Positions 8,743 to 64,000 of a stretch of 64,000 nt of DNA are shown in pieces; the first letter of the stretch is position 1; each line of letters begins with the position of its first letter. Source of the DNA: Gemmatimonadaceae bacterium (lineage in GTDB: Bacteria; Gemmatimonadota; Gemmatimonadetes; Gemmatimonadales; Gemmatimonadaceae); assembly GCA_035606695.1 (NCBI GenBank), contig DATNEW010000050.1, forward strand, positions 124,001 through 188,000, written 5' to 3'. The position numbers and the translations under genes were made by a program. The notes beneath the pieces were generated by a model. That model had not been told where the DNA came from. It worked only from the letters and a program-made list of their open reading frames with translations, and searched no databases.

Positions 8743-8834
8743 GTCATTCCGAGCGAAGCGAGGAATCTTGCGTGGGGGTAGAGCGGCCAGTCTCTCTACC
8801 GGGACAGAAGATTCCTCGCTGCGCTCGGAATGAC
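8743..8834. repeat. GTCATTCC-type palindromic element
   Basis: A 92-bp element with inverted arms: GTCATTCCGAGCGAAGCGAG at the left and CTCGCTGCGCTCGGAATGAC at the right, with GAATCT/AGATTC pairing inside. It sits between the amidohydrolase start and the 3' end of the next gene, and its left end overlaps the amidohydrolase's alternative ATG. Related copies lie at 24828, 34418 and 41856. Confidence 0.9.
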
Positions 8835-19312: not shown

Positions 19313-19361
19313 CTCGGCCGCGCTGCGCTCGAGGGGCTGGCGCGCCTGCGGCGCAGGGGAT
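19313..19361. repeat. Left 49-bp inverted repeat of toxin-antitoxin cassette
   Basis: This segment is the exact reverse complement of 20249-20297. It starts with CTCGGCCGCG, immediately after the zwf stop, and ends with GCGCAGGGGAT. It is itself rich in short GC palindromes, and beyond the 49 bp the match continues with mismatches. Confidence 0.93.
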
Positions 19362-19471
19362 GGCGCGCCTGCGGCGCAAGCAATGGCGCGCTACGCGCAG
19401 GGAATGGCGCGCTACGCGCAGGGAATGGCGCGCTGCGCGCGGGGAATGGCGCGCTGCGCGCGGGGGGCAGC
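19362..19471. repeat. Array of ~20-22-bp GC-palindrome units
   Basis: About five further units of the type AATGGCGCGCTACGCGCAGG follow the left inverted repeat; the inner ones are two exact pairs (TACGCGCA and TGCGCGCG versions). Each unit is a small hairpin (GCGCGC/GCGCGC). The array ends just before the toxin stop codon at 19483 and may also act as a transcription end for zwf. Confidence 0.85.
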
Positions 19472-19482
19472 AGCCCGCGCTA

Positions 19483-24827: not shown

Positions 24828-24854
24828 GTCATCCTGAGCGAAGCGAAGGATGAC
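24828..24854. repeat. 27-bp GTCATCCT palindrome between nadB and nadA
   Basis: GTCATCCT and AGGATGAC form perfect 8-bp arms around an 11-base loop (GAGCGAAGCGA). This is the minimal form of the family found at 8743, 34418 and 41856. It lies between two co-directional genes of one pathway, so it could lower or tune nadA expression through mRNA structure. Confidence 0.9.
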
Positions 24855-34417: not shown

Positions 34418-34518
34418 GTCATCCCGACCGGAGTGAAACGACCGAGGGATCTAACATCTCGATAGAGGGCTGAGCCCTCATACCGGGACGCTAGATCCCT
34501 CGCTACGCTCGGGATGAC
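34418..34518. repeat. 101-bp GTCATCCC palindromic element
   Basis: Ends GTCATCCCGA and TCGGGATGAC; an inner pair GAGGGATCT/AGATCCCTC encloses a variable core with its own small hairpin (GAGGGCTGAGCCCTC). It lies in the convergent gap between the lipoprotein and the ANTAR regulator gene, so it may also serve as a terminator for either. Confidence 0.92.
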
Positions 34519-41460: not shown

Positions 41461-41556
41461 TTACGGCGTGTACACGCGCTGAAGAATCCAGAGGAGCACG
41501 AGCGTGATCACCTGCACGCCGAGCACGCGAGCGAGATTGCGTTGAAAGCGACTCAT
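41461..41556 (-). CDS. 31-residue single-helix membrane peptide
   Basis: A tiny ORF: MSRFQRNLAR, then a hydrophobic helix (VLGVQVITLVLLWILQ, residues 11-26) and RVYTP. Its ATG overlaps the LysE stop (ATGA) and its TAA ends one base before the symporter GTG, so it is fully embedded in the operon. The basic N-terminus suggests an N-in membrane helix. It may be a small accessory subunit of the symporter or the LysE exporter, as some transporters have small one-helix partners. It could also be non-functional leader coding; function is unknown. Confidence 0.5.
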   Translation of the reverse strand: MSRFQRNLARVLGVQVITLVLLWILQRVYTP

Positions 41557-42257
41557 CGCCGGTCCCACGCGAGTCGCGCACCGAGCGCGATGAGCAGGCC
41601 GCCGGTGAGACGCTCCAACGTGGCGCGCACACGCGGCCGCGTGAGCACGACGCCGAGACGATCGACGAACCACGCGTATGCGGTGAGCCACACGAGGCCC
41701 ATCGGGATGTGAATGCTCGCCAGCAGTAAACTGCGGCGCAGTACGCTCTCGCCGGGCGAGATGAATTGCGGGAGGAAGGTGAGATAAAAAATCGCCACCT
41801 TCGGGTTGAGAATGTTGGTGAGGAAGCCCTGGAGGAAGGGTTTGAGCAGAGGCATGTCATCCCGAGCGAGCGGAGCGAGTCGAGGGACCCCCTTCTCAGC
41901 GGAGCGCTGCTCGTCCGCCAGGACGGGAGTCCCTCGACTCCGGCGCTGCGCGCCTCCGCTCGGGATGACCACACTTTCCCGTATCGCCTGCACCCCGATC
42001 CACACCAGATACGCCGCCCCCACGGTCTTCACCACATTGTACGCCGTCGCCGAGGTCGCGAGGATCGCCGACAGCCCAAGCGCAGAGAACGTCGCGTGCA
42101 CCACGCAGCCGAGACAGATGCCGACGATCGTCAGCATCGTACGACGCCGGCCGTAGGCCAGCACGTTGCGCGTCACCAGCGCCATGTCCGCGCCGGGCAG
42201 AATCGTCAACACCGCGGCGACGCCAATGAATGCGAACAGCCGCGGATCGATCGACAT
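41553..42257 (-). CDS. LysE/RhtB-family exporter with in-frame repeat insertion
   Basis: A 234-residue exporter of the LysE/RhtB type (amino-acid or metabolite efflux). Helices 1-3 (LTILPGADMALVTRNVLAYG near residues 18-35, then AAYLVWIGVQAIRES) and helices 4-6 (FLQGFLTNILNPKVAIFYLTF) are intact and in register. Between them, residues ~97-134 are encoded by a 114-bp GTCATCCC palindrome (41856-41969), a hydrophilic loop absent from normal family members. Without it the protein would be 196 residues. The insert is a multiple of three and has no stop, so the exporter may still work. Confidence 0.88.
   Translation of the reverse strand: MSIDPRLFAFIGVAAVLTILPGADMALVTRNVLAYGRRRTMLTIVGICLGCVVHATFSALGLSAILATSATAYNVVKTVGAAYLVWIGVQAIRESVVIPSGGAQRRSRGTPVLADEQRSAEKGVPRLAPLARDDMPLLKPFLQGFLTNILNPKVAIFYLTFLPQFISPGESVLRRSLLLASIHIPMGLVWLTAYAWFVDRLGVVLTRPRVRATLERLTGGLLIALGARLAWDRR
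41856..41969. repeat. 114-bp GTCATCCC palindrome inserted within the LysE gene
   Basis: Ends are GTCATCCCGAGCG and CGCTCGGGATGAC (13-bp perfect inverted ends); an inner GAGGGAC/GTCCCTC pair also matches. Length 114 bp is divisible by three. It is the same family as the elements at 8743, 24828 and 34418, but here inside a coding sequence. Confidence 0.93.

Positions 42258-59878: not shown

Positions 59879-64000
<4,122 letters not shown>

Follow-up and report, generated by a model that had tools for sequence, protein, structure and literature searches.

The window analysed here, a stretch of 64,000 nucleotides (positions 124001-188000 of contig C50), belongs to a draft genome of 5.9 Mb in 50 contigs (G000); the closest relatives that carry a name are Gemmatimonadaceae/Gemmatimonadetes MAGs. 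On the minus strand, at 41553..42257, it carries a gene for a LysE/RhtB-family exporter of 234 aa, and within this gene, at 41856-41969 on the same strand, lies a 114-bp element. The element is a dimeric, REP-like palindrome that supplies 38 in-frame codons (codons 97-134, VIPSGGAQRRSRGTPVLADEQRSAEKGVPRLAPLARDD). It is bounded by unstranded terminal inverted repeats of 13 bp, GTCATCCCGAGCG on the left (41856..41868, preceded by T, which makes a TGTC tag) and CGCTCGGGATGAC on the right (41957..41969), which are complementary at 13/13 positions; the predicted folding energies of its two strands are -76 and -82 kcal/mol. A preliminary description of this DNA had proposed a family member lying in frame within an otherwise normal LysE gene, with 13-bp inverted ends and no stop in the frame used. 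All of this holds: the Pfam LysE match (112.8 bits) is a single stretch of residues 16-231 that runs through the insert, and the used frame is free of stops over codons 97-134.

We modelled the protein with AlphaFold, using a 50-sequence alignment. The mean pLDDT was 86 and the helices were confident. The insert, with a pLDDT of about 50 and without secondary structure, was placed between helices 70-97 and 138-149, so that the 38 added residues are modelled as an unstructured loop between TM3 and TM4. This prediction agrees with the earlier proposal that an extra loop of 38 residues is apparently tolerated, in the manner of the Rickettsia palindromic elements (RPEs).

The element is one of many in this genome. 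Another 39 copies align to it at E <= 1.7e-23, the closest being 88-89% identical, and there are 670 occurrences of the terminus pattern compared with 14 of a reversed control pattern; the element in the LysE gene is therefore real and not a chance resemblance. The 670 termini correspond to roughly 300 elements, or about one per 20 kb. Most copies are two-ended inverted dimers in two main size classes, of about 92-104 and 111-136 bp. Among 252 termini the base preceding GTC was T in 174, C in 45, G in 22 and A in 11 (T or C, 87%), and AT followed GTC in 98-100% of ends, though the pattern searched for already favours AT there. The unit of the 92-bp type spans AT(C/T)CC to GG(A/G)AT; units such as ATCCCGAGCGAAGCGAGGGAT have 5 bp paired, then two mismatches, with CT or CC as what follows, and the long subtype deviates further. 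From the same superfamily the window also holds a 92-bp member of the GTCATTCC type (8743..8834), in which GGAATGAC half-end repeats continue as a tail to 8888, a 101-bp member (34418..34518), both outside called coding frames, and a minimal unit, GTCATCCTGAGCGAAGCGAAGGATGAC, of 27 bp (24828..24854); all are unstranded.

A RAYT/Y1 transposase was considered as the mover and ruled out, as PF01797 had no match in the genome itself, with 5 of 14 control genomes positive. A search of Rfam returned no family at its gathering score. No obvious direct repeat indicating a target-site duplication was seen beside the eight intragenic copies described below, for which there was no closely related empty site to compare. 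In one of these, in a PMT-type glycosyltransferase gene, comparison with relatives suggests a gain of 81 nt and a loss of about 9 nt.

The closest known elements are the CGTC-tagged REPs, mostly dimers without a linked transposase; RPE-4 and RPE-6 of Rickettsia are among them, as is dRS3 of Neisseria (PMC3733652). The Gemmatimonadaceae family shares with them the CGTC/TGTC end tag, a stem starting with AT, the dimeric arrangement, a mostly intergenic location with some units in frame inside genes (DnaE2 among them) and the lack of an associated transposase. It differs in its bulged stem, in its spacer-bearing dimers of mostly 92-136 bp and in its host phylum, Gemmatimonadota; the word Gemmatimonas is absent from that paper. 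CGTC-REP monomers have been defined by a stem of 8-9 bp, a loop of 4-5 nt and a CCA-like 3-nt tail (PMC3733652), and since the monomer stem here does not fall exactly within the 8-9 bp rule we call the family REP-like, of CGTC type; it likely belongs to the CGTC-tagged REP super-family. The resemblance to RPEs noted in the preliminary description, that of palindromes in frame in protein genes, is borne out. Its view that this is "a different type of repeat" is probably mistaken, as tag and architecture fit the CGTC REPs, among which Di Nocera et al. 2013 (PMC3733652) placed RPE-4 as CGTC-4 and RPE-6 as CGTC-1; the link to RPEs rests on that assignment. Like RPEs (about 100-150 bp), these palindromes enter protein genes without shifting the frame and are tolerated there as additional stretches. 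On the other hand, the host is not Rickettsia, about 4% of two-ended copies are intragenic and no coding adaptation is seen. MITEs such as ERIC/RU-1 and NEMIS (Delihas 2007, PMC2229807) have in common with the family their terminal inverted repeats, a size of 100-200 bp, the absence of a transposase gene and reported in-frame fusions, but here no obvious target-site duplication, no TA ends and no cognate transposase were seen.

To count copies within genes we used every terminus site listed for contigs C1 to C17, together with continuous stretches of other contigs, 2.39 Mb in all, which yielded 193 two-ended copies, 124 of them strict. A codon-usage model was applied, and a coding frame was required on both sides of a copy. 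Only ~4% of the two-ended copies lay inside genes, and all eight of these were in frame and open, with no frame-broken case in the 2.39 Mb. For a family copy inserted at random into a gene, the chance of being both in frame and open is about 0.12, and on a 12% expectation the probability of 8/8 is about 5e-8, although the 8/8 figure is somewhat biased because long-decayed frame-broken genes evade the coding-potential filter. Eight frame-broken candidates were discarded, Pfam giving either two different neighbouring genes or a complete domain upstream of the element. The sites L213, L217, L172:6556, L174:671 and L298:3090 were also discarded as ordinary coding sequence, the second end being weakly matched and the protein reading as normal.

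Besides LysE (114 bp, TM3-TM4 loop), at least seven genes of this genome carry such a copy, in most cases in a linker or loop. The cobalamin-dependent MetH (L261) has 112 bp between S-methyl_trans (36-334) and Pterin_bind (411-645), and the lipase maturation factor LMF1 (L222) has 143 bp between the LMF1 and LMF1_C domains. At L245 the error-prone DNA polymerase DnaE2 carries 92 bp inside its HHH_6 match, which the insert lengthens, and the gene directly upstream, with a weak resemblance to Y-family polymerases, carries 100 bp; from its position beside DnaE2 we read this Y-family-like gene as ImuB. The PMT-type glycosyltransferase (L248) has 81 bp, and a DnaQ/DEDD-type exonuclease (L257) has 99 bp just ahead of the exonuclease domain. 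The eighth, in a Vps10/BNR protein (L226), is a palindrome with its tags inside, located in a Gly-rich stretch and accepted by the first coding filter, though not by a stricter one. The scores of MetH and DnaE2 exceed the curated NCBIfam cut-offs. These two are better evidence than LysE for enzymes that would still work with an insert.

The most probable account, in which we have considerable confidence, is that a genome-wide (T/C)GTC REP-like dimer family is at work, of which the LysE copy is a member tolerated in a loop while harmful insertions are purged. A (T/C)GTC-tagged dimer would have entered the TM3-TM4 loop of the exporter, and the copy would have survived because the net length change caused no frameshift, the element is open in the frame that is read and the loop can accommodate 38 disordered residues. 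Copies of the family appear to insert widely; those that break a frame or fall in folded parts would be purged, and those in linkers and loops would remain in the protein at no or slight cost and decay later. The copy number, the in-frame reading, the position in the loop, the 8/8 count and the other subfamilies in the LysE loop of relatives are observed; that purging is the cause, that the insert is translated and that the protein is active is what we infer.

One alternative is that LysE is being lost in this clade, so that the insert was tolerated under relaxed selection and its in-frame state is luck. The LysE gene has an in-frame deletion of ~37 residues in G002 and a frame-shifting deletion in G105. 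In G005 (C22:162782-162976, L038) only the first and last ~33 codons are left, joined in frame, in the same synteny, adjoining deacetylase-like and symporter genes. In three genomes of the same genus (G001, G003 and G004) LysE had no match at the thresholds used. This erosion in G002, G105 and G005 and the failure to find the gene in three others suggest that relaxed constraint may have aided tolerance, and a single in-frame case would arise by chance in about 12% of insertions. Yet the gene is full length in the source genome and in G045, and dN/dS between the source genome and G002 is low on both flanks of the insert (0.17 and 0.08 for the two halves). These values argue for a conserved protein, though purifying selection could pre-date the insertion. 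What is more, in-frame copies are present in MetH and DnaE2, and no frame-broken genes were seen among those examined in the source genome. We therefore regard gene loss as the explanation as rather unlikely, though by no means negligible.

The preliminary description had also suggested that an alignment of LysE homologues would find the insert to be absent from related genomes. This is correct outside the clade: the homologues at L065, L066 and L075 and in G148, which represents another family of the order, are without any element, and the loop is short and element-free in Chloroflexi and Acidobacteria MAGs as it is in G148. Within the clade it is not, since G002, of the same genus, and G045, of the same family, carry different family members in the same loop. 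The element begins one base past the Arg codon of a conserved Ile-Arg in G002 and nine bases past it in the source genome, and the reading phases consequently differ. The G002 insert matches some 45 places in G002, with up to 80% identity over the first 101 bases. The G045 insert, a dimer, has matching copies in both G045 and G105, with identities of up to 91-94%. The elements of the source genome and G002 hardly match each other at all. To judge by these sequences, repeated invasion of one permissive LysE loop is the simplest reading. Its main rival is a single ancestral insertion in the loop of the source genome, G002, G045 and G105 whose sequence was subsequently replaced, through gene conversion, by that of local subfamilies. 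Family sequence is indeed present in the same loop of all four genomes, and the decayed half-element of the G105 loop resembles half of that of G045. However, the differing start distances and phases of the source and G002 copies, the near absence of a match between them and the opposite arrangement of the G045 dimer, which has its tags inside, all speak against gene conversion, and we consider it unlikely. A comparable case is recB of Xanthomonas campestris and X. oryzae, in which different REPs are found near the same site in related species (PMC3733652); here the gene is LysE, and a second example is a relic in the Y-family-like gene of G004.

For LMF1, the Y-family-like gene, DnaE2, PMT and the DnaQ-like protein, orthologues from the same genus are free of an intact element at the corresponding site; the G004 relic just mentioned is a half-element. 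The MetH linkers of 29 family members, 45 to 89 residues long, contain no terminus of this family. In G003 another repeat-like peptide is seen in the linkers of MetH (L189) and of the Y-family-like protein (L314), STLHSPPSTL and STLHSP, so that these linkers may collect whatever repeat a species abounds in. Three of the eight targets (DnaE2, the adjoining Y-family-like gene and the DnaQ-like exonuclease) are of replication or repair type, for which the binomial probability is 4e-4 to 6e-3, assuming that such genes make up 2-5% of all. A broader proposal, that in different Gemmatimonadota REP-like elements settle again and again in the same linkers and loops of the same genes, with an excess in replication and repair genes, could draw on these targets, on the LysE loop, occupied in two genera of the family, and on the Y-family-like gene of the source genome with the G004 relic; we hold it to be improbable. 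If true, such recurrence would imply biased targeting or a selected retention that alters mutation behaviour, beyond the survival of harmless hits.

We also asked whether the element itself is adapted to coding. A length divisible by three, as the preliminary description had it, is true of the LysE copy (114 bp) and fails as a property of the family (17 of 79 copies, and 69 of 193 in the larger set). The in-frame copies of MetH, LMF1, DnaE2 and the Y-family-like gene, of 112, 143, 92 and 100 bp, are not multiples of three either; it is the net length change that counts. The six-frame openness of the elements is 0.363, against 0.519 (s.d. 0.018) in dinucleotide-matched shuffles. Length bias to multiples of three and frames kept open were thus both ruled out, and there is no sign that the element is built for coding. 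This bears on the possibility that the element is selected for, either as a useful protein segment or through regulation of the mRNA by a very stable hairpin. The strength of the hairpin and the 3/8 replication or repair type targets, a pattern that Di Nocera et al. thought difficult to put down to chance, would fit selection. But open frames are rarer than in shuffled DNA, the insert peptides vary between proteins because different frames are used, and relatives manage without the inserts, so that we think selection for the element very improbable. An assembly artefact or chimaera, as might be feared in a repeat-rich draft of 50 contigs, is scarcely credible for the LysE copy, whose sequence is unique, which lies in mid-contig flanked by the two halves of one gene and which, like seven other copies, preserves the frame.

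In-frame REPs within genes, including DnaE2 and other repair genes, have already been described (PMC3733652), as have in-frame REP/RPE insertions and their proposed neutrality in linkers and loops (PMC3733652; PMC2229807). We found no report of palindromic repeats in Gemmatimonas in the open literature, and a literature search with the sequence of the repeat gave none of relevance among the papers listed. As far as the open literature shows, the phylum, the 8/8 count, the apparent repeated invasion of the LysE loop and the 3/8 hits of replication or repair type are new. These observations extend the in-frame invasion of genes by REP/RPE-type palindromes to Gemmatimonadota, and the unexplained tie of intragenic REPs to repair genes such as DnaE2 recurs in another phylum. 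For annotation, stretches like VIPSERSE..., CHPERSEG... and ...SLGMT within proteins from these genomes should be recognised as derived from repeat DNA.

Some elements adjoin gene boundaries. The GGGATGAC element end contains an ATG, in frame with the signal-peptide-like hydrophobic start of a downstream protein and immediately ahead of it (for example MTIAFVVALFATPLALHAQ, MTIALLFGAATARAQ), and the repeat looks as if it supplies the start codon to downstream genes. Such ATG-bearing ends lie at L157:2525-2645, L172:10391-10512, L172:11524-11635, L173:2509-2607, L026:1501-1618 and L155:2523-2615, and the downstream gene is in the ATG frame of the GGGATGAC end in 17 of 36 cases (12 expected). At L138:2437, L264:13872, L281:18721 and L284:15985 an element lies directly behind a gene and provides the stop codon for it (read as SS*), as GTAG REPs have been described to do (Di Nocera 2013, PMC3733652). 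Other repeats in the window are a 276-bp unit in four tandem copies of 70-73% identity (62872-63999), which reaches the window end, and tandem repeats of 21-23 bp, GGGAATGGCGCGCTACGCGCA, at 19341-19481.
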